A stretch of DNA of 64,000 nt from the NCBI RefSeq assembly GCF_002007645.1, contig NZ_CP019791.1, forward strand, positions 3,340,593 to 3,404,592. Reading direction: 5' to 3'. Both the position numbers and the translations under genes were made by a program. The stretch comes from Anaerohalosphaera lusitana (GTDB taxonomy: Bacteria > Planctomycetota > Phycisphaerae > Sedimentisphaerales > Anaerohalosphaeraceae). Below, in pieces: positions 4,831 through 30,788 of the stretch; position 1 is the first letter of the stretch, and every line of letters starts with the position of its first letter. The notes beneath the pieces are model-generated. The model had not been told where the DNA came from. It saw only the letters and a program-made list of their open reading frames with translations, and did not search any database.

Positions 4831-4885
4831 AAAGCGCTTATTTTTCCAAATGGGTTCGAAACGCCACAGCAGGGAGGTATGGCAA

Positions 4886-5860
4886 ATGGAAAACACAAAA
4901 CCCTATCGTTTTGCTCTTATTGGGGCTGGGGGTTATATTGCGCCGAGACACTTAAAAGCAATCAAGGAGACAGGAAATGTTCTCGAGGCAGCACTTGACA
5001 AGAGTGACTCTGTAGGAATTCTCGACTCTTATTTTCCCGAGGCTAGCTTTTTCACCGAATTCGAACGCTTCGATCGGCATATTGAAAAATTGAGGCGAGA
5101 AGATGGACACGCAGTCGACTATGTATCTATCTGTTCACCCAACTATCTGCACGATTCGCATGTAAGGTTTGCCCTAAGAATAAAGGCCCACGCGATCTGC
5201 GAAAAACCCTTGGTGCTAAACCCCTGGAACGTCGAAGCTCTCGAAGCTATCGAACAGGAGGACACCAACAATGTTTACACCATTCTGCAGTTAAGGCTGC
5301 ACCCCACAATTCTAAAGCTCAAACGCGAGATCGAATCAGGACCAGCCGATCGCATCCACGATATAGAATTGACCTACATAACGTCCCGAGGCAAGTGGTA
5401 TATGCACTCATGGAAAGGAGATATTACCAAATCCGGAGGGATCGCAACAAATATCGGCGTGCACTTCTTTGACATGCTGTCCTGGATATTCGGAGCAGAA
5501 AAGGACAACAAGGTTCACTACTACACACCCCGAAAGGCCGCGGGCCTGCTCGAATTGGAAAAGGCACGCGTAAGATGGTTTTTGTCACTCGACAGCGAAG
5601 ACCTGCCGTTCGAACCTGAACCGGACAAACCAAAGACATACCGCTCCATAAACATAGACGGCAAAGAAGTAGAATTTTCGGGCGGCTTCACGGACCTTCA
5701 CACCCTCAGCTACAAGAAAATACTGGCTGGCGAAGGGTTCGGTCTGAAGGACTCCTTGCCTTCGCTGCGTATTGTTTCGCAGATCAGAAACCTCAACCCT
5801 ATAGGGCTCAAAGGTGATTACCACCCATTTTTAAAGAAAGCGTTTGTAAGTGATGACTAA
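4886..5860 (+). CDS. wbpB: Gfo/Idh/MocA oxidoreductase, WbpB/WlbA-like (UDP-GlcNAc-uronate 3-dehydrogenase)
   Basis: By family, this enzyme uses NAD(H) to oxidise C3 of UDP-N-acetylglucosaminuronic acid on the way to 2,3-diacetamido uronic acids of surface polysaccharides. The 324-residue protein has the Rossmann loop LIGAGGYIAPRH (11-22), the catalytic-site EKP (106-108, K107) and the WbpB-typical stretches LTYITSRGKWY (162-172) and IATNIGVHFFDML (186-198). The start at 4886 has GGGAGG eight bases upstream; an in-frame ATG at 4850 does not. It overlaps the WbpD-like acetyltransferase, the partner two steps later. The intervening aminotransferase (WbpE) is not in the window. Confidence 0.85.
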   Translation: MENTKPYRFALIGAGGYIAPRHLKAIKETGNVLEAALDKSDSVGILDSYFPEASFFTEFERFDRHIEKLRREDGHAVDYVSICSPNYLHDSHVRFALRIKAHAICEKPLVLNPWNVEALEAIEQEDTNNVYTILQLRLHPTILKLKREIESGPADRIHDIELTYITSRGKWYMHSWKGDITKSGGIATNIGVHFFDMLSWIFGAEKDNKVHYYTPRKAAGLLELEKARVRWFLSLDSEDLPFEPEPDKPKTYRSINIDGKEVEFSGGFTDLHTLSYKKILAGEGFGLKDSLPSLRIVSQIRNLNPIGLKGDYHPFLKKAFVSDD

Positions 5861-6536: not shown

Positions 6537-7346
6537 ATGCCATACGAAAAACGCATTATAATAGGAGGTCTTCCCCGTTCTGGGTCAACCTTACTTAGGT
6601 TTATGCTTGATGCCGCTTCCACAATTATTTCGGGTCCGGAGACTGCTTTCTTCACTCAGCCCCTGTTTCAACAGCAGGCCACAATCGCTCGTCTTGCCCA
6701 AAGACTTGCCGATAAACTAAATATATGTCCCGAACGCCTCACAGAGGCCGTTATAACCGCGCCAACTTCCTGCCAAGCATATGATTCTATCTCCGATCTG
6801 ATGGGTGAAAACGCTGGCATCTCAAAACCTTGCTGGGCAGAAAAGTCCCCCCGCAACTGTTTCTCTTATCACAGGCTACATGCCGAGAATCCTAATTTTT
6901 ATTTCATAAGCACCATTAGGCACGGCCTTGACGTAGTAACTTCTGTGGTAAAAAACCATCCAAACAATGCAAATCAGTATTGGTGCCCCATCCAACGCTA
7001 TGTCGACACCATGCTTGCGATCTACTCGTTCAAGAGCCCACGTCATTTAATTGTAAAATACGAAGACATGGTCACCTCACCACAAAAAACAATGAATCAA
7101 ATATTTGCCTTTTTGGGGCTTAAATACGAGGACCATATAATTCAAAGCTTCCGCCAACCAGCTTCGACTCGTGATCTCACAAAGGTGCACCAGCCAAAAT
7201 TGAAGCAGGAAATCAGTTCAGACTGGATTAACAGATGGAAAGCCCTGCAGCATAGTGAACGTGTGAATGAATTCATGCAACATTCCAAAGCGGTGTATTG
7301 GCTTGAACATTCAGGCTATGAACTCCCACAAAGATCTTATACATGA
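6537..7346 (+). CDS. Sulfotransferase family protein
   Basis: The 269-residue protein is of the usual length for PAPS-dependent sulfotransferases. It carries the 5'-phosphosulfate loop GLPRSGSTLL (11-20), a 3'-phosphate site in FISTIRHGLDVVTSVVKN, and the late helix IVKYEDMVTSPQKTMNQIF. It probably sulfates the glycan made by this operon, or another carrier; the acceptor cannot be read from sequence. It lies 27 bases after the WbpD-like gene. Its stop overlaps the ATG of the short gene broken by the first insertion sequence. Confidence 0.85.
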   Translation: MPYEKRIIIGGLPRSGSTLLRFMLDAASTIISGPETAFFTQPLFQQQATIARLAQRLADKLNICPERLTEAVITAPTSCQAYDSISDLMGENAGISKPCWAEKSPRNCFSYHRLHAENPNFYFISTIRHGLDVVTSVVKNHPNNANQYWCPIQRYVDTMLAIYSFKSPRHLIVKYEDMVTSPQKTMNQIFAFLGLKYEDHIIQSFRQPASTRDLTKVHQPKLKQEISSDWINRWKALQHSERVNEFMQHSKAVYWLEHSGYELPQRSYT

Positions 7347-7431: not shown

Positions 7432-8329
7432 GAAGCTGTTTCAAAACTAACTTCATTTTAAACTTGCGCTATTAAACGACTTATGTAAACTTTGCTGTAA
7501 AACGGAAATGTTTTTTCAGCAAAGGATTTGCCGATGGTCACGGATGACAATGGAAAAAGATTGAGCCGTTGCTGCCGAAGCACAAACAGTCGCCCAAAGG
7601 CGGACGCAAGCCGCGTAGCAACCGGGAAGTTTTCGAAGGCATTTGCTGGGTCCTTCGAAGCGGGGCCAGGTGGAAGGACCTGCCCGACAGGTACCCCTCA
7701 GCGAGCACCTGCTGGCGTAGATTGCAGCAGTGGGAAGAGCAGGGAGTGTGGCTCAAAATGTGGCGTAAGTTCTTGTCAGAGCTGGACGAACAGGGCCAGC
7801 TCGAATGGGAAGAGACCTTCGCCGACGGCTGTTTCGCCTCGGCAAAAAAAGGGGGCCACAGATTGGAAAAACCAAACGCGGAAAGGGTACGAAGTGGATG
7901 GTGGTGGTCGATGGCCAGGGAGTCCCTCTCGGTGCTCACCTCGATTCGGCCTCGCCTAGTGAGATAAAGCTGCTGGAGCCGACTATCGAAAAGATTGCTG
8001 TGCCGCGAAGAGGCCGCGGGCGTCCGCGAAAAAATCCGACTCGCATCGTTGCTGACAAGGGCTACGACAGCGACCCGCTCCGTGAGAGACTGGCCAGACG
8101 CAACATTGAATTGATTTGCCCGTACCGGAAAAACAACAAGCAGAAGAAATATCATGATGGCCGAAAAATGCGGCGTTATAAGCGTAGATGGACGGTTGAG
8201 CGGACTTTTGCCTGGCTGGGCAACTTCCGCCGACTGGTCGTTCGGTATGAAAGAGAGATTAAAATGTATCAGGCGTTTTTTCATATCGCATGCTTGATTA
8301 TTACGCTAAGGCAGTTTTGAAATGGCTTC
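7432..8329 (+). mobile_element. IS5-family insertion sequence (IS427-like), 898 bp
   Basis: Terminal inverted repeats match at 16 of 20 positions: GAAGCTGTTTCAAAACTAAC at 7432-7451 and, reversed, GAAGCCATTTCAAAACTGCC at 8310-8329. A TA dinucleotide flanks both sides (7430-7431 and 8330-8331), the usual target duplication of this subgroup. One transposase gene in two overlapping frames fills the element. It interrupts a short reading frame. Confidence 0.9.
7534..8320 (+). CDS. IS5-family (IS427-like) transposase, frame broken in two places
   Basis: Together the frames give a DDE transposase with LPKHKQSPKGGRKP, SGARWKDLPDRYP, FADGCFASAKK, the IS427 signature GKTKRGKGTKWMVVVDG, VADKGYDSD and RRWTVERTFAWL. 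Frame one runs to 7967 and frame two from 7805 to 8320. The switch is a -1 shift at a run of seven A followed by G near 7845-7852, a classic slippery site that this subgroup uses on purpose. A second break lies near 7549: the ATG at 7534 gives MVTDD, and restoring one base would continue as QWKKIEPLLP. That looks like a true deletion, unless translation starts at TTG 7569. The element may therefore be inactive. Confidence 0.85.
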
Positions 8330-9891: not shown

Positions 9892-10581
9892 ATGAGCGTG
9901 CCAGTATATAAAAATCCTAAACAAGCACTGAAGGCTACCGACCAGTTTTATGCAAATCAGGCGGGCTTCCAATATACCGAAGAGCTCGTCACCGACTGGA
10001 CTCGCAAATTCGTAAATATTCCCGCTAAAGGAAACGTACTCGATCTCTGCTGCGGTGACGGCATCTGGTCCAGAGGTTTTCAGGTCAATAATCCACAACT
10101 CGATCTTTACGGCGTCGACATTTCCGAAGGAGGCATTGAAAAAGCAAAACGCCTGCTCGATACTGACGACGAGCATTTCTTCGTCTGCAACGTAGAAGTC
10201 GAATTGCCGTTTTCTGATAATTTTTTCGACCTTATTTTTGCCCGAGGTCCCGGACTCTACAACCAGCATAGCATGGATCGTCCCCAGACGATCCGCGTCA
10301 TCGAACAGTGGCACAATAAGCTGAGTGACCGCGGGCTTTTTTATTCCATTTTTGCATCTCGGCCCGAAGTAATGGGCACTTATACCCCTATGAAAAATGT
10401 GAAGCTTCCTTATAACCGCTCACCACGCAAAAGCGATACCATAGATTTCTCCGGGGGCAAGTACCACCATACGATTCAGTCTTTTTTGACGCCATTCTGG
10501 AAGGCGAGCAATGTCGAGGTGAAAAAGTACTCCTTTTTCAACAATCTGCACGTCCTTATCACCCGTAAAAAAGTCGACTAG
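9892..10581 (+). CDS. Class I SAM-dependent methyltransferase
   Basis: A 229-residue cytoplasmic protein with the SAM-binding motif VLDLCCGDG (49-57), a following acidic turn in LYGVDISEGGIEKAK and a post-motif FFDLIFARGPGLYNQ. It belongs to the Methyltransf_11/25 type. The substrate is unknown; in this operon a sugar or lipid-linked intermediate is plausible. It resumes the glycan operon just after the second insertion sequence, 55 bases beyond its right end. Confidence 0.8.
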   Translation: MSVPVYKNPKQALKATDQFYANQAGFQYTEELVTDWTRKFVNIPAKGNVLDLCCGDGIWSRGFQVNNPQLDLYGVDISEGGIEKAKRLLDTDDEHFFVCNVEVELPFSDNFFDLIFARGPGLYNQHSMDRPQTIRVIEQWHNKLSDRGLFYSIFASRPEVMGTYTPMKNVKLPYNRSPRKSDTIDFSGGKYHHTIQSFLTPFWKASNVEVKKYSFFNNLHVLITRKKVD

Positions 10582-10658: not shown

Positions 10659-12491
10659 TTGCTAAATTCCCCTTCCACAACTAAACGACTGAAACAGTTC
10701 AAGGCTATTTTGCAGCGTTATGCACAGATCGCCGGCTGGATTGCCAAAGACGGGCTATTAAAGTATAAAGTTCGCGCTGCTGCGACTGTGGTCGCCGGCA
10801 CTATGAGCGGAATGCTTCAGGCTGCAGCTCTTGGGCAGGCGGTTTACTACGCCAAACTCCTCGAAAGAGGGAACACAGTTGCATTTTTTGGGTTTTATTT
10901 TGATCCGCGCAAATCGCTCGTTTTGATAACTATAGCATCCATCGGCGTTCTCATCACTTTGCTCGTATCATCCCTGCTTCAGTTCTTCTCGAGATATCAA
11001 GCAATTAGAATAAACACAATTTACGAGGAATTCTGCGTTAAAAGAGGCATAAAAACAGCAGCAAATTTCCAGGTTTTGCATAGCACAAACGTTTCCTGTC
11101 CCCCTGACGAAAAGATCGTCAGACGCATCTGCCACAGCGACTGTCGTCTGGCGGGCAGAGCCCTGCGGCTGCTCTTGTGGGCCGTAGGACCTTTCACTCA
11201 ACTGGTGATATTCGTGTCCATCCTCTTTTATCTGGACCAGATCGCAACCATTTTTGCCGGCCTGGCCGCTCTCGCAACAGGGTATTTTCTCTACCGGATA
11301 AATCAGTCTGCAACTGCTGATTCACGCATTTACGAAGATTCGGGACCGGGCGCCGCAACTGAAAAAGCTCAACTTATTCACCAGGCCTGTTCCATAACAC
11401 AGTTTGGCCACGTGCCTTCCTGGTATGAAGACGTTTACTCAAATGGACAGATCGACGTCAATCGAAAAGCCTATGAAGCCCGCTTGTCTGTAACAGAACG
11501 CAGCCGCCTGGTCGTAGGCATCCTTTCCGCTATCATCATAGGGGTTGCTATCGTTTACTTCGGCGGCAAAAGTATAGTGGCCGGAACCAGTTGGGGTGCC
11601 CTCCTAGCGTATATCTATATGCTCAAACGTTCCACTCAACTAACGGAGCAGATCGCAATCACGATAACCTCAGTAAACAGGTTCTACCCTCAAATTAAGC
11701 GATACTATGAATTTATAACACACAGCAACACTCCGCCAAGTTCAAAGCAATGTCTATCCGGTCCCGACGAAGTGCCGACAGGAAAACTTGGCTCCGAGGC
11801 TGTAGCGGGCACTGAGAGCGAATATATCCTGAAAGCGGGCCGGCCCATAGCATTGCTGTCACCTTATCAGATCAACCGCTATTCACTGGCACACACGATT
11901 GAGTCCCTGTTATCAGAGTCATATATTACTTCAGTGCTCCCCAGCACTTGCTTCATAAGCAAAAACTACAGCATTCCGCCTTTCACCTTGAGAAACTTCC
12001 TGTACCTTTCTGATGATGTCACCCGCACCGAGCTTAGTGACCAGCTGGCCGCCGCCGGTCTCAAACCGGAATCATTACAGACGCTACCCCAAAATATAGA
12101 CAGCGTTATTTACCCCGATCAATGGCAAAATCTTGATCCGACGCTGCGATATGCGATCGCAATGCAGGCAGTCTGTAATTCATCTTACAAATGGGTTTTG
12201 ATCGATCGGATTGTTGTCACGACCCTGCCGAAGGCGACTTACGATCATTATCTCAACCGGTTAGAAAAGATATTTATTATAGTAGTGGATTCACCCAAAA
12301 TCGACTACAAGAAGATAGGCTCTTACAACGAAGAAAGAGTAATAGTACTGAAAAATTCAGCTATCGCAGGTATTGGGTCGCCGGAATGGGCTTTGGATAA
12401 CAAAGAGCAGATCGAATCGGTTATCGGTCCGCAGTTCGCGATCGAAGCCGCCCAAATAGCAGAAGCTGATATTTCTGCAATGGAAGAATAG
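10659..12491 (+). CDS. ABC exporter-like protein with a degenerate ATPase domain
   Basis: The 610-residue protein has the layout of an ABC exporter half: about six hydrophobic segments (roughly 40-66, 86-110, 168-191, 194-212, 285-303, 311-322) then a C-terminal domain (about 385-600). The C-terminal domain keeps the order of an ABC ATPase but lacks its catalytic motifs. RPIALLSPYQINRYSL (395-410) stands where the P-loop should be, with no GxxGxGK; QNLDPTLRYAIAMQAV (490-505) replaces the LSGGQ region; WVLIDR (512-517) has Arg in place of the catalytic Glu; FIIVVDSP (539-546) lacks the switch His. It cannot plausibly hydrolyse ATP alone. The start is a TTG at 10659. It may pair with an active partner elsewhere or serve a structural role. 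Confidence 0.65.
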   Translation: MLNSPSTTKRLKQFKAILQRYAQIAGWIAKDGLLKYKVRAAATVVAGTMSGMLQAAALGQAVYYAKLLERGNTVAFFGFYFDPRKSLVLITIASIGVLITLLVSSLLQFFSRYQAIRINTIYEEFCVKRGIKTAANFQVLHSTNVSCPPDEKIVRRICHSDCRLAGRALRLLLWAVGPFTQLVIFVSILFYLDQIATIFAGLAALATGYFLYRINQSATADSRIYEDSGPGAATEKAQLIHQACSITQFGHVPSWYEDVYSNGQIDVNRKAYEARLSVTERSRLVVGILSAIIIGVAIVYFGGKSIVAGTSWGALLAYIYMLKRSTQLTEQIAITITSVNRFYPQIKRYYEFITHSNTPPSSKQCLSGPDEVPTGKLGSEAVAGTESEYILKAGRPIALLSPYQINRYSLAHTIESLLSESYITSVLPSTCFISKNYSIPPFTLRNFLYLSDDVTRTELSDQLAAAGLKPESLQTLPQNIDSVIYPDQWQNLDPTLRYAIAMQAVCNSSYKWVLIDRIVVTTLPKATYDHYLNRLEKIFIIVVDSPKIDYKKIGSYNEERVIVLKNSAIAGIGSPEWALDNKEQIESVIGPQFAIEAAQIAEADISAMEE

Positions 12492-12520: not shown

Positions 12521-14545
12521 ATGTCTATATCACCAACGTACTTCGAATATCTAACACACTTCGGGCAGACAGAAACACTGTATCAACTCCACAAACAACC
12601 TGCTTCGAACATGATCGCGCTTCGACATGACGTTGACCACGACCTCGACTTGGCCCTGGAAATGGCCTGGCATGAACATGACCGGAATTGTGCCGCTACA
12701 TATTTCCTGCTCCACACTGCTCCATACTGGCAGGATCCACACTTGATTGAAAAGTGCCTTCAACTGCAAGACTTTGGACACGAAGTCTCGCTGCATATAA
12801 ACGCTCTTACAGAGTGGTACGCCGGCACAATAGACGACGTTGCAAAAAGTCTGCAAAATATATTGATGCCGCTTGCAGAAGCAGGTGTCAAAGTAAAGGG
12901 TATAAGTGCTCACGGCGATAAAGCCTGTTATCACCAAAGTTTTATTAATTACTGGTGTTTTGCAGAGTTCAAACCCGATGATCCATCTATCTCCGAAAAC
13001 GGACTTTCCGCCGAGGGCATCAAGGTTATTGATCCAGCATTCCAAATTCCATATCCCGAATCCGAAATACTGAGACGTGCGGACGGACAAACATTTGATC
13101 TTTGGTCCTTATCTGCTTCAGAAATCGGTATTGAGTACGACGCATGCCATTTACAATTTGATAAATACTTCACCGACTCAGGAGGCAATTGGATTAGGTC
13201 GGAGAACCCGCTGAGCATCGATCTGAGCGAGGACAGGCACCAGATTCTCATGCACCCCATCCATTGGCGAGGTCCCCAAAAAGTATTTTTCTTCTTGTCA
13301 GCAGCCAGGAGCGGCTCAAAATGGCTTACCAATATGCTCGATCAAGCCACGCCCCTGTCAGCCAGGCACGAATTCACTCTCAATCATTCATTTGCCGAAG
13401 GCGAACCAAAGCTGGTTAAACGTACGGGTCCGGGCTTTGTCCAACTCGCGGAAAATAAAGAAAAGATTAGAGAGCTTCTTGGCGAATCACATACTTTTGT
13501 GCAAAAACTGCCAAATGATTACGCAGAAGCGAACGTGTACCTGGAACAGTTTATTCCGGAGCTGCAGGAGGAGTTCCCCGAGGCCCAGCTCATCCATCTT
13601 TTTAGGCAGCCCAGAGATGTAGTTCGTTCTATTATGAATCGCGACTGGTACGCGGCACCTGAAGACAACGCTCACCCGCGTCTGGATGTCCCTAATTTTG
13701 AACAACTCCCACAGTTTGCGAAAGCCTGCTGGTACGTCCGCAAGGCAAATGAGACTCTAAGCAAAGTTTGTAAACGACAAATCAAGTTTGAACGCATGGT
13801 CAACGACGAAGAATATTTACGAGAAAAACTGAAACTACTGGACATCCCCTACTACCCACGGTTGGCCGCACGCGAGTTCCAGAAGGTCATAAACGCCAAC
13901 CAGAATAACCAGCTCCCCGTATATGATCATTGGTCACCCAGACAAAAAAGGATTTTCGACTCTATACTTGGCAAAATGGATTCTGCCTCGTATGGCTGCA
14001 CTCTCGATTTTATTGAAAGTGCAGCGATCTTCATTGAAAATGCAAGATTCTCGCTCATTTCGCTTTTCCGGAAAGTTTTGGGAACCAGGGCTGTTGCAAT
14101 TCCTCTGGACCTCTCTAGAGAAGGCATAACCTGCAAGAACTGTGATGTAGAGCATCGCGCAGACGGGCTCTTTATTAAGCCTGACGGAAAAGGACACGCA
14201 CATGTTCTGATGGCTGGAGGCTCCTGGAAAAAGACTTCGCCTCCTTCGGGGTTCGAAATTAAGAGCGGCCATTATTACAAAGGATCACTATCTTCAGCCA
14301 CACCGAACCAAAATCATCAGGCATCTATAATGTGCCTGGTATACAACAAGTCCGGCAACCTGCTTTCCAAACAAAATCTTGCTGCCGTCAGTCATGAGTC
14401 ACCGCGGGCAGATTTCGCTTTTCGACCAAAAGTCAATGCTGGTAGATTCAATCTGGCAATTTACATACCGGTTGGCAAGATGCAACAAGGACTGACAGTC
14501 AATGACATAGATTTGCACGCTGTACCATACTTGGAAAAACTATAA
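12521..14545 (+). CDS. Polysaccharide deacetylase-like / sulfotransferase fusion protein
   Basis: A 674-residue protein of three parts. Residues 1-250 resemble a NodB-type carbohydrate deacetylase: HDVDHD (36-41) supplies metal-binding Asp/His, with GHEVSLHIN (86-94) and SAHGDK (129-134). Residues 252-480 are a sulfotransferase with the PAPS loop LSAARSGSKWL (259-269) and the 3'-phosphate region LIHLFRQPRDVVRSI. Residues about 550-674 look like a beta-sandwich, perhaps carbohydrate-binding. A logical activity is removal of an N-acetyl group followed by sulfation, as in heparan N-deacetylase/N-sulfotransferase, but no homology to that enzyme is claimed. The gene follows the ABC-like gene by 29 bases. 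Confidence 0.7.
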   Translation: MSISPTYFEYLTHFGQTETLYQLHKQPASNMIALRHDVDHDLDLALEMAWHEHDRNCAATYFLLHTAPYWQDPHLIEKCLQLQDFGHEVSLHINALTEWYAGTIDDVAKSLQNILMPLAEAGVKVKGISAHGDKACYHQSFINYWCFAEFKPDDPSISENGLSAEGIKVIDPAFQIPYPESEILRRADGQTFDLWSLSASEIGIEYDACHLQFDKYFTDSGGNWIRSENPLSIDLSEDRHQILMHPIHWRGPQKVFFFLSAARSGSKWLTNMLDQATPLSARHEFTLNHSFAEGEPKLVKRTGPGFVQLAENKEKIRELLGESHTFVQKLPNDYAEANVYLEQFIPELQEEFPEAQLIHLFRQPRDVVRSIMNRDWYAAPEDNAHPRLDVPNFEQLPQFAKACWYVRKANETLSKVCKRQIKFERMVNDEEYLREKLKLLDIPYYPRLAAREFQKVINANQNNQLPVYDHWSPRQKRIFDSILGKMDSASYGCTLDFIESAAIFIENARFSLISLFRKVLGTRAVAIPLDLSREGITCKNCDVEHRADGLFIKPDGKGHAHVLMAGGSWKKTSPPSGFEIKSGHYYKGSLSSATPNQNHQASIMCLVYNKSGNLLSKQNLAAVSHESPRADFAFRPKVNAGRFNLAIYIPVGKMQQGLTVNDIDLHAVPYLEKL

Positions 14546-14573: not shown

Positions 14574-16343
14574 ATGCCGTTAAAAATCTGTATGTTTGTT
14601 TTTAATAACTGTCAGCATGATTCAAGAGTACTCAAAGAAGCAGGTACTTTGGCCAGGGCAGGACATGATGTAAGAATAATCGCCCTGCTCGACAAAGACT
14701 CTCTGCCTCTTGAAGAACGCGACGGGTTCAAGATCATCCGCATAGAACGCGACCCGATCCATTACCGTATACTTCGGGCAATACGCATAGGCACGTGGAA
14801 ACATACTTTAACCCGGCCGCTATCCTGCATCCGTCGTCTACTGGTCCGCATTCCCAAAGCTGCGGTTCGCACTTCACGCTCATTCCTGTCCAAATTTAAG
14901 CGACGCCGCCTCAAATCTTCAGCAAAGCTAAAAGCTTCTTTTTTACGGCGATCCTTTAACAAAACAGTAGATGCGGCCCTCGACTACCACAACCACGTAA
15001 AAACAATCGGCGCGCGAACACATATTCGACAAAATTTCAAAAAACATCCGATCTACTTTTTAATAATAGGCTGGTTGATCATTTCTGCTTATCTATTCAC
15101 GCGATATGGCTATGTGATTGCAAAAATTTCTATTTGCCGCCCATTAATAATCTTGTGGGCTCGGCATCTTAGAAGTATTCTAAAACTTCATATCATTCGA
15201 TTCTTAAAGATACTGTGGGCCCGACACTTGCGAAGAATATATAATCTCGGAATCTGTCGCCCTTTTATAGTCTTAGAAACTCGATTATCACGCAGTCTGA
15301 ACAATTTCTTTTATGGGTGCTGCAAGAAACTTCTAATGAGATTTCACCGCCCTCTTTGCTTTTTAGACTATTATAATCGCAGTTATCCTCGTGTCCTCAC
15401 TGACCCGGCAGATGTATATCATGCTCACGATCTCAACACACTGCCCCTGGCCTACAAGTTACACAAGAAAACTGGTGGCTCTATTGTTTACGACTCCCAC
15501 GAGTTTTACGTTGAGCGAAACAGAGCGAACAAGACAACTCCGTTTCATAAGTTCCTTCTCAAAAGATTCGAAGCCTTTTACGTCAAAAACTGCGAACACG
15601 TTATAACCGTCAGCAGCTCCATAGGTAAAGAACTGAAAAAACGGTACTCGGTTAAACAACTGTCAATCATATTGAACGCGCCGCAACGTACCGATTCTGC
15701 TTGTTTGACAACGAACGAAAACATAACTTTACGATCACAGATCGGCATCGATGCAAATAAGAAGATAATCCTCTATGTGGGCAACATCAGCCTTAACAGA
15801 GGACTCGAAAATCTGATACAAAGTCTTTCGTATTTAGACAACTGCGTTCTCGTTATGATGGGCAAAGCAACGCAAACCTACGCCGACAAGCTATGCGAAG
15901 TGGCAGTTGATTCAGGCGTCAGCGACCAGGTACATTTTTTCGGACCTGTACCGCAAAAACAGGTAATAAAGTATGCATCATCCGCAGACATTGGGGCAGC
16001 TCCTATTCTCAATGCATGTCTGAGCTATTATTACTGCCTGCCGAACAAGCTCTTCGAGTGCATGTCTGCTGGCCTGCCGACAATCGGCAGCAACTTCCCC
16101 GAACTTAAAAAAGTCATAGAGGGCTACGGTATAGGAAAAACATTCGATCCGGAAAGCCCCCAGGACATTGCCGACGCCGTTAAATACATCCTTGCCGATG
16201 AAAATGCACTCAACGAAATGCGCAAAAGATCCCTCGAGGCTTCTGAAGTATTTAACTGGCAAAATGAAGCCGAAAAGTTGCTGGCAATTTATGAAGCCCT
16301 AGATTTCAAACCGGAAGTTTACCCGCAAATAGTTTCAGCTTAG
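14574..16343 (+). CDS. GT4-family glycosyltransferase with a long basic insert
   Basis: A 589-residue GT-B enzyme. The N-terminal fold begins KICMFVFNNCQHDSRVLKEA (4-23) and continues after an insert at DVYHAHDLNTLPLA (280-293). The C-terminal donor domain has ILYVGNISLNRGLENLI and LPNKLFECMSAGLPTIGS. The insert, about 65-265, is very rich in Arg, Lys and Leu and contains a hydrophobic segment (161-177) and three tandem 20-residue repeats (187-246). Ordinary GT4 proteins of this type are near 400 residues. The insert could attach the enzyme to the membrane. It lies in the glycan operon, 29 bases after the fusion gene and 4 bases before the next. Confidence 0.85.
   Translation: MPLKICMFVFNNCQHDSRVLKEAGTLARAGHDVRIIALLDKDSLPLEERDGFKIIRIERDPIHYRILRAIRIGTWKHTLTRPLSCIRRLLVRIPKAAVRTSRSFLSKFKRRRLKSSAKLKASFLRRSFNKTVDAALDYHNHVKTIGARTHIRQNFKKHPIYFLIIGWLIISAYLFTRYGYVIAKISICRPLIILWARHLRSILKLHIIRFLKILWARHLRRIYNLGICRPFIVLETRLSRSLNNFFYGCCKKLLMRFHRPLCFLDYYNRSYPRVLTDPADVYHAHDLNTLPLAYKLHKKTGGSIVYDSHEFYVERNRANKTTPFHKFLLKRFEAFYVKNCEHVITVSSSIGKELKKRYSVKQLSIILNAPQRTDSACLTTNENITLRSQIGIDANKKIILYVGNISLNRGLENLIQSLSYLDNCVLVMMGKATQTYADKLCEVAVDSGVSDQVHFFGPVPQKQVIKYASSADIGAAPILNACLSYYYCLPNKLFECMSAGLPTIGSNFPELKKVIEGYGIGKTFDPESPQDIADAVKYILADENALNEMRKRSLEASEVFNWQNEAEKLLAIYEALDFKPEVYPQIVSA
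15132..15311 (+). repeat. Three tandem 60-bp units inside the GT4 gene
   Basis: The coding sequence repeats in units of 60 bases (15132-15191, 15192-15251, 15252-15311), each encoding 20 residues. The first two units share ILWARHLR and the first and third share ICRP at the unit start. The copies have diverged at the DNA level, so the duplication is not recent. Confidence 0.65.
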
Positions 16344-16346
16344 CTC

Positions 16347-17408
16347 ATGACGATTTCTATAAAACCTTCACAAGATCACCCCGACGTTTCCATCGTAATG
16401 CCCTGCCGAAATGAAGAGGCGCACATCGCCCAATGCATACAATCCGTGCTCGACCAGGACTATCCTGCGGACAATTACGAACTGTTGATCGTGGACGGCA
16501 TGAGTGACGATCAGACCCGCAAGATAGTACACGATAATTTCGGAAACACCGAAAATATCAGAGTTATTGACAACCCGGCAAGAACTACACCCCACGCCCT
16601 CAATGCGGGCATCAAAAACGCACGGGGGCAGATCATAATGATCATGGGAGCTCACGCACACTACGCAAGCGATTACGTCTCTAAGTGTGTGAAATCATTG
16701 CTCTCAACAGACGCAGACAATGTTGGAGGTATCTGCCGTGTTCTCTGTGATGACAAAAACCTTCTGCACAGATCGATTGCTGCCGCTCTGAGCTCCCCCT
16801 TCGGGGTGGGCAATTCCTATTTCCGGATCGGCACTGCCGAAAGGCGATATGTCGACACAGTCTTCGGAGGCTGCTATCGCAAGGAAATCTTCGAAAAAAT
16901 CGGTCTTTTCGACACCGACCTCCTTCGTGGACAGGATACTGAGTTCAACGCAAGACTGCGAAAAAATGGCGGAAAGATACTGCTCGACCCTCAAATTGTT
17001 TCCGCTTATGTAGCAAGAGACACGCTCAAAAAGCTCGTCAAGATGGAATGGCAGTACGGATATTTCAAGCCGCTGGTAATCAAAAAAGTCGGCGGGCTCT
17101 TTACCCTTCGGCAAACGGTCCCCCCGGCATTCGTTTTGACATTGGGCATTTTGCTCGTCACGTCTTTTTTCTCCCTGCTGTCCTTCTATATCTTACTTTC
17201 ATTACTTCTTTTGTATCTCTCGGTCAATATCCCTGCCTCTACCTCAATAGCCCTTAGAAAAGGAATAGGCCAAATTTTATTTTTACCTGTCATCTTTGCC
17301 ATCATCCATTTTTGCTGGGGCACAGGTTTTCTTGCAGGCACAATAGATTTCATTCTGCTTTCCAAAGAATCAAAGGAAGGCCTCACAGACATTTCACTTA
17401 CCAGATAA
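16347..17408 (+). CDS. GT2-family glycosyltransferase with membrane tail (ExoA-like)
   Basis: A 353-residue enzyme with a GT-A domain opening VSIVMPCRNEEAHIAQCI, the acidic VDGMSDDQT, and NPARTTPHALNAGIKNARGQ, much as in succinoglycan ExoA. The donor-site region is IMIMGAHAHYASDYV, where the usual DxD is replaced by AHA. The acceptor end is RGQDTEFNARLRKNGGKI. Two to three hydrophobic segments near the C-terminus (about 255-345) anchor it in the inner membrane. It probably extends a lipid-linked oligosaccharide. It starts 4 bases after the GT4 stop. Confidence 0.85.
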   Translation: MTISIKPSQDHPDVSIVMPCRNEEAHIAQCIQSVLDQDYPADNYELLIVDGMSDDQTRKIVHDNFGNTENIRVIDNPARTTPHALNAGIKNARGQIIMIMGAHAHYASDYVSKCVKSLLSTDADNVGGICRVLCDDKNLLHRSIAAALSSPFGVGNSYFRIGTAERRYVDTVFGGCYRKEIFEKIGLFDTDLLRGQDTEFNARLRKNGGKILLDPQIVSAYVARDTLKKLVKMEWQYGYFKPLVIKKVGGLFTLRQTVPPAFVLTLGILLVTSFFSLLSFYILLSLLLLYLSVNIPASTSIALRKGIGQILFLPVIFAIIHFCWGTGFLAGTIDFILLSKESKEGLTDISLTR

Positions 17409-17427: not shown

Positions 17428-18705
17428 ATGCGAAGTGCTTTAAAAGATCTGGGCATTCAATTCAGCTTACTAATAGCTGACACAGTATTGATTGAGATTG
17501 TGTTCCTGGCTTCCTTTCTGATCAGATACGGCTTACCTCTGCCCGAAAGAAACATACTCGCCTATGAGAGCAGCTCGCCACTTCTTACATTGATCTATAT
17601 ATTAATGTTTGCGATCTGCCGGGCCTTCAAACGGCGGTTTACCTGCCATTGGGATGTCTTCAAACATGTCGCTTGCGCAATGGCAGTGGGTACCCTCTTC
17701 AGTTTCATGGCTGTCTATCTGTTCAGATTTAAATGGATGGCATTCCCGTCCAGCATCTTCCCAATATCCCTTGTCCTGGGTACGATCGTAATATCAGTTA
17801 GCAACATGGTAATCCTGCGTTTGACTGGCAGAATAAAAAAACGGGTCCTCGTTCTCGGCAGCAAGGGGCAAGATTTTTTCTTTGGAGGTAAAAAAAGGCT
17901 CGTACTCATTCATACCCATAACATTGTCGATATGCCCAAGTACAAGGACATTGATGAAATACTGATTTGTGAAAAAATCCACGAGGACTCGCAGCTTAAC
18001 CTGCTGATTTTTCTTTTTCTAAAATCTAAAGTGGATGTAATTTTCAGCCCAGACTTATACGATGAGCTGCTTAGCAATAATTTGACAGAAAAAACTTCTA
18101 TTCAGTTTCTTTCAACATTCCTCGGCAAAAAATCCGGCTGGGAGGAATTTCTGATTTGGTCCGTAGACATTATCTCCAGCATTGCGCTTCTCATACTCAC
18201 CCTGCCGATAACCATTCCAACTGCCATGCTGATCAAGTTGACGTCGCCGGGCCCTGTCTTCTACCTGCAAAGACGAGCCGGGAAGGACGGTAAATTTTTT
18301 ACGTTGATCAAGTTCCGCACAATGGTTGACGATGCCGAGCACAAGACCGGACCTGTCCTCGCACAAGAAAATGACCAGCGGGTTACAAAACTGGGCCGTT
18401 TCCTTCGCCAGACAAGAATAGACGAACTGCCGCAGCTAATAAATATAATCAAAGGAGACATGAGTATGGTGGGCCCAAGACCTGAGCGGCCTCATTTCGC
18501 CAAGCTGCACAAAGCACTCAGAGGCATCAGACTCGCTGTCAAACCGGGACTTACAGGACTTGCACAGATAAGAAGCTCCTACGACATAAAGCCCGAACAC
18601 AAGAAGAAATACGATTACCTCTACATTCAGCGGCGCTCCGCACTGCTGAACATTTACCTGATGATCAAAACCCTTCCCATAATTTTGCTTCGCAAAGGTA
18701 TCTAA
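17428..18705 (+). CDS. Undecaprenyl-phosphate sugar-1-phosphate transferase (WbaP-like)
   Basis: This enzyme would start the repeat unit by moving a sugar-1-phosphate from a nucleotide sugar to undecaprenyl phosphate. The 425-residue protein has four hydrophobic segments in its first 135 residues, a middle soluble region, and the bacterial sugar transferase domain (about 235-420) with LTSPGPVFYLQRRAGKDG, FTLIKFRTM, RFLRQTRIDELPQLINI, MVGPRPERP and KPGLTGLAQI. It is the last gene of the plus-strand glycan operon. Its stop overlaps the stop of the minus-strand gene that follows by four bases. No Wzx, Wzy or Wzc is visible nearby. Confidence 0.9.
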   Translation: MRSALKDLGIQFSLLIADTVLIEIVFLASFLIRYGLPLPERNILAYESSSPLLTLIYILMFAICRAFKRRFTCHWDVFKHVACAMAVGTLFSFMAVYLFRFKWMAFPSSIFPISLVLGTIVISVSNMVILRLTGRIKKRVLVLGSKGQDFFFGGKKRLVLIHTHNIVDMPKYKDIDEILICEKIHEDSQLNLLIFLFLKSKVDVIFSPDLYDELLSNNLTEKTSIQFLSTFLGKKSGWEEFLIWSVDIISSIALLILTLPITIPTAMLIKLTSPGPVFYLQRRAGKDGKFFTLIKFRTMVDDAEHKTGPVLAQENDQRVTKLGRFLRQTRIDELPQLINIIKGDMSMVGPRPERPHFAKLHKALRGIRLAVKPGLTGLAQIRSSYDIKPEHKKKYDYLYIQRRSALLNIYLMIKTLPIILLRKGI

Positions 18706-28586: not shown

Positions 28587-30599
28587 TCAGTCACGCAGTC
28601 TTTCCTGCCGCTTCAACGCCAGTTTAAGCTGACGCGGATCAGATATGTAATAGGCCCACGCAGCATCACCCGAACCGATCACCTGCCAGTGCTCGTATAC
28701 CGTCTTCTCAACGTATTCAGGCAGTTCATGATCAACCCACGAATTGCGTTCCCACTCAGTGATTGCCGCAACAACATCGCCCACCTCATCTGATTCCATG
28801 ACCGTGGGTTCCAGTTCATCCGGATCCTCGCTCAGGTCATACGCAAAAACCTTTCGCAGATAAGGCCAGTAAATATACTTCATATCCCCCTCAACATATC
28901 CCAGCGGACTCTGGTCATACCACGACGAAAAGAAAAACCGTCTCTCAGGATCTAGCTGTCCCCCAAGTGCATTAAATCCGTCAAATTCAATACCCTGAAC
29001 CTTAACCCCCGCTAGCTCCAACAGCGTTGGCGTCACATCGAGCTGCGAACAGGGAGTTTCCACTTTCCTGCCCCCCTCCAGTCCGCCCGGCCAGTTTATC
29101 ACCCACGGAACCCTGATAACCTCCTCATGCGGTATCCACCTGCCGTTATCAAGCTCATCCCTAAAACTCGTCCCGTGATCTCCGATAACACAGAATATCG
29201 TATCCTCTGCCAGCCCCCTCTTATCGAGCTCATCCCTCATCCTGCCGATAAAATCATCAGTATACCTGACCGTTTTCAGATAACGCGAATAAGCATTTTC
29301 CTCCGCATTCGCTTCCTCGCCGGGCAATTCGTAAGGATCGTGCGCAACCGACGTCAAAACTGTCAGTAGAAAAGGCTCCTCGCTCTTATCAATCCATTCA
29401 AAAGCCGGGCCCGTCAACCGCATATCATCACCCGAGAGATACCCAAGGTTCACGGACGGATCTTCCAGATTCTCCCTGTACCACCCCCAGTCAAATCCGA
29501 AATTACTGCAAAGACTCGGTGCACACTCAAATGTACCTTTAGCCGCAACAAAAAAAGCACTTCGATAACCAACCGCTCCCAGAATAGAAGGCAAACTCGC
29601 ATAGCTATGCTCCACCGGCAATGCCTCCACATAATCCGCCCTGATAACCGGATCGGTCCCTGCAAGCGTCGCCCACAATGCCTTCGTCGTATGCGAAACC
29701 GGAACACGCGTACAATCCATATTCACCCCGGCTTCCGCCAGCTCAGCAAGATTCGGCGTTGTCCCAGCCGCCCCATCGCCCAGCGAAGTTGCCTCGTATG
29801 ACACACTTTCGAGCAAAATTACCACGATGTTGGGCCTTTGCTCACCTTCTGCACTCACACGCACCTCATCCAGCGAATAAAGCTCTCTGCCACTGTCGCT
29901 CTTCTCCTCGTCGCCGGGGTTTACACTGGAAACTATCGCTTGCCAGTGACTGCTGAAACCAAGTATTTCACATATGGCAGGAGATCTGGGCTGAGATTTG
30001 ACTTCTTGCTGAATGATCACGATCAAAGCAACAATAAGGGCGGTCCTGGCAGCAAATTTGAGATGATAAAGGCGCTCTTTTACAACCTTGGAAGGCTTCA
30101 CAAAAAACTTGGTAAGAATAATCGCGCAAATAGCCCCCAGTATCCCTAGCAGTATGAACCTGCCCCAGCCGGCACGCAAATGGGTCACCACCAAAGGCCA
30201 AAGATCCTTAAAATCCCGCGCCAACACCCTGATCAGCCCGCTGTGAAGTTGCACCCCGCTGCGTATAAGCCACCCGGTATTCAGCAAAGACCACGCACAA
30301 ACCGCCAGGGATATCGCTATGGCCCCCCTGGCCATCGTCCGCGAGGGCCTCAGCGCATACAGCATGCTTATTATTAAAAGTATAGTGCCGAAAAACAAGA
30401 GATCGGAAATTGCAACAATCCCTATTTGAGCCATACCGCCCAACTGATCCTGCTTGTAAAGCACGATCGCCTTGCCGGCCACTGTACACACCAGGCTTAT
30501 CAGCAGTATCACTGTCTCTATCCTGCAAGACACATATTCCTGCACAAACTTTGACAGCCTTGCCGTACCTTTATTCAGTTTATTTGTAGGTTTGGCCAT
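28587..30599 (-). CDS. Membrane sulfatase-fold hydrolase/transferase
   Basis: The 670-residue protein has five hydrophobic segments (about 30-48, 58-80, 93-112, 147-166, 184-198) followed by an extracytoplasmic alkaline-phosphatase-superfamily domain (about 255-590). IVVILLESVSYEA (258-270) gives metal ligands, VSHTTKALW (301-309) offers the Thr nucleophile, and VIGDHGTSF gives Asp and His. There is no CxPSR formylglycine site, so it is not a classical sulfatase; LtaS- or EptA-like phospho-group transferases share this plan. The ATG at 30599 is preferred to a GTG at 30614. It is divergent from the PocR-AraC regulator. Confidence 0.78.
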   Translation of the reverse strand: MAKPTNKLNKGTARLSKFVQEYVSCRIETVILLISLVCTVAGKAIVLYKQDQLGGMAQIGIVAISDLLFFGTILLIISMLYALRPSRTMARGAIAISLAVCAWSLLNTGWLIRSGVQLHSGLIRVLARDFKDLWPLVVTHLRAGWGRFILLGILGAICAIILTKFFVKPSKVVKERLYHLKFAARTALIVALIVIIQQEVKSQPRSPAICEILGFSSHWQAIVSSVNPGDEEKSDSGRELYSLDEVRVSAEGEQRPNIVVILLESVSYEATSLGDGAAGTTPNLAELAEAGVNMDCTRVPVSHTTKALWATLAGTDPVIRADYVEALPVEHSYASLPSILGAVGYRSAFFVAAKGTFECAPSLCSNFGFDWGWYRENLEDPSVNLGYLSGDDMRLTGPAFEWIDKSEEPFLLTVLTSVAHDPYELPGEEANAEENAYSRYLKTVRYTDDFIGRMRDELDKRGLAEDTIFCVIGDHGTSFRDELDNGRWIPHEEVIRVPWVINWPGGLEGGRKVETPCSQLDVTPTLLELAGVKVQGIEFDGFNALGGQLDPERRFFFSSWYDQSPLGYVEGDMKYIYWPYLRKVFAYDLSEDPDELEPTVMESDEVGDVVAAITEWERNSWVDHELPEYVEKTVYEHWQVIGSGDAAWAYYISDPRQLKLALKRQERLRD

Positions 30600-30788
30600 T
30601 AAAAAACGTCCCACAACTTACCCGTTAACTGGGCAATCTAACACAACAGCAGCAAAATTACAAATCATTTCTTTAATATTATCTCCGCTTTGTGTGCATA
30701 ATGCCCAAAGCAAATTAACAATTTCTAAACCCCTGAGTCCGGCTAGGCAACCTGAAACTGGCAAAAACCCATTCAGCCGAAATACTCA

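Follow-up and report, generated by a model that had tools for sequence, protein, structure and literature searches.

Does a bacterial protein that joins a deacetylase-like domain to a sulfotransferase carry out N-deacetylation followed by N-sulfation of an amino sugar? The earlier note on this DNA had suggested so from the layout of one open reading frame in a 64,000-nucleotide stretch of the Anaerohalosphaera lusitana genome (the window). The gene starts with ATG and encodes 674 residues (Table 1). In our preferred reading, to which we give an even chance of being right, the product would work in the cytosol and have two activities: it would strip an N-acyl group from an amino sugar in the intermediate of a surface polysaccharide, and then add sulfate to that sugar, most simply at the amine so exposed.

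Table 1. Positions in the window of the fusion gene, its parts and the neighbouring genes.
Feature	Position	Strand	Basis
Gfo/Idh/MocA oxidoreductase, glycan cluster	4850..5860	+	domain match
Hexapeptide acyltransferase; relatives ≈52% identical in L042 and L129	5850..6509	+	domain match, homologue comparison
Separate Sulfotransfer_3 gene, glycan cluster	6537..7346	+	92.5 bits
Methyltransferase	9892..10581	+	Pfam
ABC-exporter-like protein, degenerate ATPase half; recurring neighbour	10659..12491	+	profile search, neighbourhood comparison
NodB-like/sulfotransferase/CBM-like fusion gene	12521..14545	+	ORF call, motifs, homologues
NodB/CE4-like domain, residues 1–250	12521..13270	+	AF2 pLDDT 95, fold matches
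Motif 1 HDVDHD, residues 36–41; D37 and D39 invariant	12626..12643	+	family alignment
H92, first CE4 metal His position; second His is Leu96	12794..12796	+	profile alignment to BC1960
H131-G-D in the motif 3 region, where strand 4 ends; possible substitute metal ligand	12911..12919	+	model, alignment
D219, motif 4 position (relay Asp)	13175..13177	+	at least 90% in 24 sequences; 11/11 fusion sequences
H245 in LMHP, at the motif 5 (catalytic acid) position	13253..13255	+	invariant
Sulfotransferase domain, residues about 251–500	13271..14020	+	Pfam PF13469 257–431; TPST/CurM profile hits
5'-phosphosulfate loop FFLSAARSGSKWL, residues 257–269	13289..13327	+	alignment
E284, aligned with TPST Glu-Glu pair; catalytic base candidate	13370..13372	+	alignment, profile hits
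3'-phosphate motif HLFRQPRDVVRS, residues 359–370	13595..13630	+	alignment
C-terminal CBM-like jelly roll, residues 519–671	14075..14533	+	predicted structure, fold matches
GT4 glycosyltransferase; homologue in 9/9 other fusion loci	14574..16343	+	Pfam, locus comparison
GT2 glycosyltransferase	16347..17408	+	Pfam
Polyprenyl-phosphate sugar phosphotransferase (Bac_transf)	17428..18705	+	Pfam, NCBIfam

The chain consists of a NodB/CE4-like barrel, a Sulfotransfer_3 domain and a jelly roll resembling carbohydrate-binding modules (CBMs), in that order. In a Pfam scan, Sulfotransfer_3 was the sole match above its cut-off (32.7 bits, residues 257–431). The N- and C-terminal parts had no Pfam match, PF01522 failing to recognise the NodB-like domain, and the protein had no match in NCBIfam. 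Since no signal peptide was evident by eye at the N-terminus (MSISPTYFEYL), the protein was taken to be cytosolic.

An AF2 model of residues 1–257, built from 18 sequences (the window protein, related loci and NodB relatives from viral contigs), had a pLDDT of 95.0 and a pTM of 0.92. A VIA search of this model against solved structures placed WbmS of Bordetella at the top (3HFT; Z 10.9, rmsd 3.5, 170 aligned residues, 16% identity), and nearly all of the matches listed after it were CE4-type deacetylases at Z 7–9. The top five Foldseek matches were all of CE4 type, at modest E-values (4.6e-4 to 9.6e-4). Two of the best were the pseudoenzyme BA3943 and 2VYO, the latter called probably inactive in a passage of PMC10967932. 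Sequence profiles of the domain gave weak CE4 matches only against solved structures (best E 0.035), a further profile search (A4) returned chance matches only, and PHROGs held no family for the 18 NodB members. As modelled, the fold of the NodB-like part is that of a NodB/CE4 barrel.

A full-length AF2 model from six sequences was poor (mean pLDDT 52.5), and only its C-terminal part (≈63–85 by blocks) was used, none of its sulfotransferase region. In this model, residues 520–670 resemble CBM22, CBM4 and CBM16 jelly rolls at Z ≈12–13. The predicted fold is therefore a CBM4/16/22-type β-sandwich; because ephrin receptors and similar unrelated jelly rolls also match, at Z 11.4–11.9, sugar binding stays putative.

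The fusion gene is the second in a tight, same-strand run of five genes separated by 3–29 nt, in the order ABC-like protein, fusion protein, GT4, GT2 and polyprenyl-phosphate sugar transferase. Upstream of the run, on the same strand, lie genes for a Gfo/Idh oxidoreductase, a hexapeptide acyltransferase, a sulfotransferase and a methyltransferase, with a transposase remnant (a DDE fragment at 7805–8320) between the last two. The earlier note had claimed NodB-type residues (HDVDHD, residues 36–41; SAHGDK, 129–134) and a PAPS loop (AARSGSKWL, 261–269) in one protein, a β-sandwich, and a neighbouring glycan operon with a sulfotransferase. All of these were borne out, with the qualifications that the NodB motif set is non-canonical and that the β-sandwich comes from a model of low overall confidence.

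Several of the neighbours have features of their own. The ABC-like protein had no Pfam match; it resembles MsbA/BmrA exporters (profile E 7.6e-8 to BmrA), and its ATPase half has no recognisable Walker A. Relatives, several with an acidic tail at the end, lie beside NodB/sulfotransferase genes in the fetched stretch of three of the nine other fusion loci (L031, L064 and L129) and on another contig of genome G784 (L093). The two halves of the GT4 are separated by a long insert, basic and hydrophobic in character; in its Coleofasciculus counterpart (L043:758-2704) the insert is, by eye, a tandem array with a repeat of ≈20 residues. On the minus strand, a sulfatase gene (28587–30614) matches SGSH_C (N-sulphoglucosamine sulphohydrolase C-terminal) above its cut-off, which is only suggestive; SGSH_C is probably widespread among sulfatases.

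The source genome is a single 4.25 Mb contig in which the fusion gene is single-copy. It has three APS-kinase matches over cut-off, so that PAPS synthesis is probably possible in the organism. Of its four Sulfotransfer_3 matches, two fall within the window. Elsewhere in the genome, a stretch of ≈5.5 kb (G000:C1:19259-24689) contains a strong Sulfotransfer_3 match along with two APS-kinase matches.

A search for the same architecture, which the earlier note had proposed, found it recurring at 39–51% identity over the chain, and in ten distinct loci in all: the window, G422 (= L040), G752, G416 (= L039), Candidatus Brocadia MAG_8 (L041 = G764/G783), G762, G763, a Thermodesulfovibrionia MAG (L042 = G784), a Coleofasciculus MAG (L043 = G785), and G1592 from a draw around the phylum of G785. 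The L042 and L043 fusions end within the C-terminal domain at contig ends. L044, near-identical to G422/L040, was counted with it as one locus, and a further fusion in G696, whose sulfotransferase is truncated and lacks the 3'-phosphate motif, was kept outside the ten. (Taxon labels come from the MAG records and may be wrong; the near-identical L044 and L040 contigs, from the casp150 and casp40 MAGs, are binned as Verrucomicrobia and Planctomycetota, probably a binning error.) Recurrence across independent assemblies ruled out chance juxtaposition or mis-assembly.

The distribution is rare and patchy. A search of 59 genomes matched the window's own genome only. The phylum draw gave full-length fusions in 3 of 392 genomes and the class draw in 3 of 397 (without the truncated G696), the window's own genome included in each; other draws, counting the centre genome each time, gave 4/62 (the order of G416), 1/200, 1/387 and 2/386, and the draws overlap one another. 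Presence in all anammox bacteria was ruled out by the count of 4/62. No relative was found by tblastn against plasmids, in a single-sequence scan of genome contigs, or in viral scans with the full protein, A2 or the NodB-GDSL set. The fusion gene would appear to be an accessory, exchanged gene.

The sulfotransferase domain looks complete for PAPS use, judged by its aligned motifs. R263, G265, E284, E336, R362, R369, S370 and R374 are identical in all ten intact fusions, and R263, G265, E284, R362 and S370 are invariant also in 13 aligned sulfotransferase domains. In TPST2, the base is the second Glu of the pair with which E284 aligns. Against the Sulfotransfer_3 cut-off of 27 bits, the window protein (32.7) and one of the two relatives scanned (P0003, 29.7) score above, and the other (P0002, 23.8) below. 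A profile of the 13 domains matched tyrosylprotein sulfotransferases (TPSTs) and CurM/Ols sulfotransferases at E ≈1e-6, with a weak NodH row; no NDST, the animal N-deacetylase/N-sulfotransferase, appeared in the sequence searches.

The NodB subfamily is often, not always, coupled to sulfotransferases, in several cases as a pair of adjacent genes. Of 19 NodB-only hits, twelve share their ORF with a sulfotransferase match or have one no more than 1.5 kb away, nine of these matches being strong and three short profile fragments (G456, and in both G437 and G381 the second NodB gene); this count leaves out G1308, G1263, G1361 and G1590. The other seven (G302, G227, G413, G253, G184, G282 and G833) had none in that range, and the later NodB hits L130 and L131 had none nearby. 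Two further single-chain layouts, both exceeding the Sulfotransfer_3 cut-off, were found: sulfotransferase then NodB (L065:3-1673, its 5' end cut by the contig), and NodB, a middle part and sulfotransferase (L036:8653-11715). That the joining recurs in different orders argues for a link between the two reactions within the pathway.

NodB relatives of the WbmS-like type or on viral contigs mostly have no nearby sulfotransferase, and sulfation therefore cannot be read from the NodB domain by itself. Of 12 viral contigs with NodB (two of them near-identical), 1 had a match within 1.5 kb, and none lay near the weaker relatives L012, L014 and L021 (loci L101, L103 and L105). The viral contigs L066–L077 carry stand-alone members of the same family, with motifs RHDVDHD, SHGDP and LVHPxWW. 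At L005 and L006 (G430 and G437), a NodB-like domain is followed by a weak GDSL/SGNH-like part, and a sulfotransferase gene adjoins; in L064, 12 kb take in three NodB-like genes together with a sulfotransferase, the ABC-like gene and an ORF that by eye looks GSCFA-like.

The predicted deacetylase fold, the conserved PAPS-site and barrel residues, the ten loci of the same order, the other NodB–sulfotransferase layouts, the GT4 gene in nine of nine other loci, the Gfo/Idh and hexapeptide acyltransferase genes, the APS kinases and the N-sulfated exopolymers of Pontiella favour the preferred reading. Against it stand the loss of the second CE4 metal His, the modest Foldseek E-values with a pseudoenzyme and a probably inactive relative among the best matches, the NodB relatives that have no sulfotransferase nearby, and the nearest solved sulfotransferases by sequence, which are TPSTs (O-sulfotransferases) and CurM/Ols types rather than NDST. 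This last point, the weak NodH row and the further sulfotransferase genes in the same clusters would suit an enzyme whose NodB-like domain de-N-acylates while the sulfotransferase acts on a hydroxyl, either of that sugar or of one next to it; separate NodB and NodH de-N-acylate and O-sulfate Nod factors. Direct fusion and repeated pairing are, however, most simply explained by a freed amine handed between the two sites, and we regard O-sulfation as rather unlikely, though a serious competitor.

H36, D37, D39, E52, H92, H131, H245 and P246 are invariant across 24 NodB relatives, and H87 and D219 are conserved in at least 90% of them. In a profile alignment to the CE4 enzyme BC1960, D37 coincides with the first Asp of motif 1, and H92 with the first of the two metal His. 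The motif 1 Asp pair is spaced D-V-D, compared to D-D in CE4, and motif 2 (HxxxH) lacks its second metal His, position +4 from H92 being Leu or Ile in 11/11 fusion sequences. The motif 4 and 5 positions are kept, with D219 and H245 in all 11 fusion sequences and H245 in 24/24 relatives. In the AF2 model, D37/D39, H92, H131, D219 and H245 are each placed at a strand end or immediately past one, where barrel active sites are expected.

The NodB-like domain is a non-canonical CE4 relative, the standard motif set being that given in PMC10967932. As passages of the same article describe NodB-like families that function despite divergent motifs (Agd3, ChbG and the deformylase ArnD), and also one metal-independent enzyme, a rewired metal site, in which H131 may replace the lost His, is plausible. 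The earlier note had held that loss of the metal ligands in an alignment would speak against its proposal; the loss proved partial, since HxxxH has become H92-x-x-x-L96, yet D37, D39, H92, H131 and H245 are invariant in the 24 sequences.

The missing His, and the existence of CE4 pseudoenzymes that rank high in the fold search, could also point to a catalytically dead, glycan-binding scaffold beside a sulfotransferase that works alone. We consider this improbable, because the eight invariant residues hold across sequences many of which are stand-alone or viral, and because the motif 4 and 5 positions are kept; such conservation would be unlikely for a dead site.

The Gfo/Idh and hexapeptide acyltransferase genes, common to the window, L042 and L129, and a DegT-type aminotransferase gene in L042 suggest an amino-sugar substrate. 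We liken the first two to WlbA/WlbB, in which case the substrate is perhaps a diamino uronic acid; their NCBIfam scores fall well short of the equivalog cut-offs. The fold matches include ArnD (8T0J), at Z 8.0, and its motif 1 reads D-V-D like that of the window domain, but removal of another N-acyl group (e.g., formyl) from a lipid-linked sugar, with the sulfotransferase acting later at a different position, is the least probable reading of all, since no formyltransferase is among the annotated cluster genes and the cluster carries a hexapeptide-type acyltransferase, a type that usually acetylates.

In the preferred reading of a de-N-acylating and N-sulfating enzyme, the CBM-like domain would hold an amino-sugar-containing, probably lipid-linked, polysaccharide intermediate, from which the NodB-like domain would strip an N-acyl, most likely N-acetyl, group. 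A metal would be bound by D37/D39, H92 and probably H131, while H245 would act as the acid, partnered by D219. In the PAPS-dependent domain that follows, E284 would serve as the base, and this domain would then sulfate the product, most simply at the freed amine. We infer the metal site, the deacetylation, the order of steps, the N-sulfation and the substrate. The earlier proposal of N-deacetylation followed by N-sulfation is thus strengthened by the three domains, the deacetylase fold, the PAPS sulfotransferase, the amino-sugar-type genes and the recurring coupling, and weakened by the lost second metal His.

According to passages of PMC7356697, N-sulfation makes up 75–80% of the sulfated exopolymer pool in Pontiella, of the same PVC superphylum; N-sulfated exopolymers occur in two isolates of this superphylum, and prokaryotic glycosaminoglycan sulfotransferases are stated there to be not known. 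None of the fusion loci was shown to be from Pontiella. N-linked sulfate is also reported in granular sludge in PMC10483923, which describes the bacterial pathways as not well known. One fusion locus is in a Candidatus Brocadia MAG. The literature searched, which covered few subscription journals, named no natural bacterial deacetylase–sulfotransferase fusion. The conserved single chain and its linked glycosyltransferase genes thus provide a specific candidate gene for bacterial N-sulfated polymers. More broadly, and tentatively, with chances that we put somewhat short of even, it may be a bacterial N-deacetylase/N-sulfotransferase of origin independent of the animal NDSTs, in which a TPST-like sulfotransferase works with a NodB metal site that has been rewired; it would start the N-sulfation of an amino-sugar polymer in Planctomycetota and others, and would be one of the enzymes behind N-sulfated glycosaminoglycan-like bacterial exopolymers. 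PMC13353177 identifies NDST that is active in bacteria as a bottleneck for heparin-type synthesis, and a natural bacterial enzyme of NDST-like kind could aid such synthesis.

Among known systems, the best structural match of the NodB part is WbmS, a putative O-antigen polysaccharide deacetylase on which no papers were found in the literature searched; 3HFT is a 242-residue chain, whereas the fusion's barrel is joined to a sulfotransferase. With BC1960 and other CE4 NodB deacetylases the protein shares the barrel fold and the positions of the motif 1 Asp, first motif 2 His, motif 4 Asp and motif 5 His, but TFDDG is replaced by HDVDHD, and neither the second His of motif 2 nor an RPPYG motif 3 is present. 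The PAPS loop, Glu and 3'-phosphate motif align with those of the tyrosylprotein and CurM/Ols sulfotransferases, which have other partner domains; the fusion's acceptor is presumably a glycan. An engineered artificial NDST in E. coli likewise joins a deacetylase to an N-sulfotransferase and acts on heparosan (PMC13353177), but it is man-made, and the relevant text of that article names no natural bacterial fusion.

The comparison with the animal heparan sulfate enzymes, which the earlier note had drawn, would hold for function only, the sulfotransferase being by sequence closest to TPST/CurM. In NDST1, as in the fusion, a deacetylase barrel precedes a PAPS sulfotransferase in one chain; NDST1 removes an N-acyl group before it sulfates the freed amine, as described in sections of PMC10864358. 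NDST1 has a non-catalytic N-terminal domain, which the fusion lacks, having a CBM-like C-terminal domain instead; its deacetylase is Agd3-like (D320/H389/H393 with D319/H529), in contrast to the H92-x-x-x-L96 pattern of the fusion. With the two-His metal motif absent, our analysis ruled out membership of the NDST family: the protein may work like an NDST and is not filed as one, and an NDST-like logic was probably reached here by a separate fusion.
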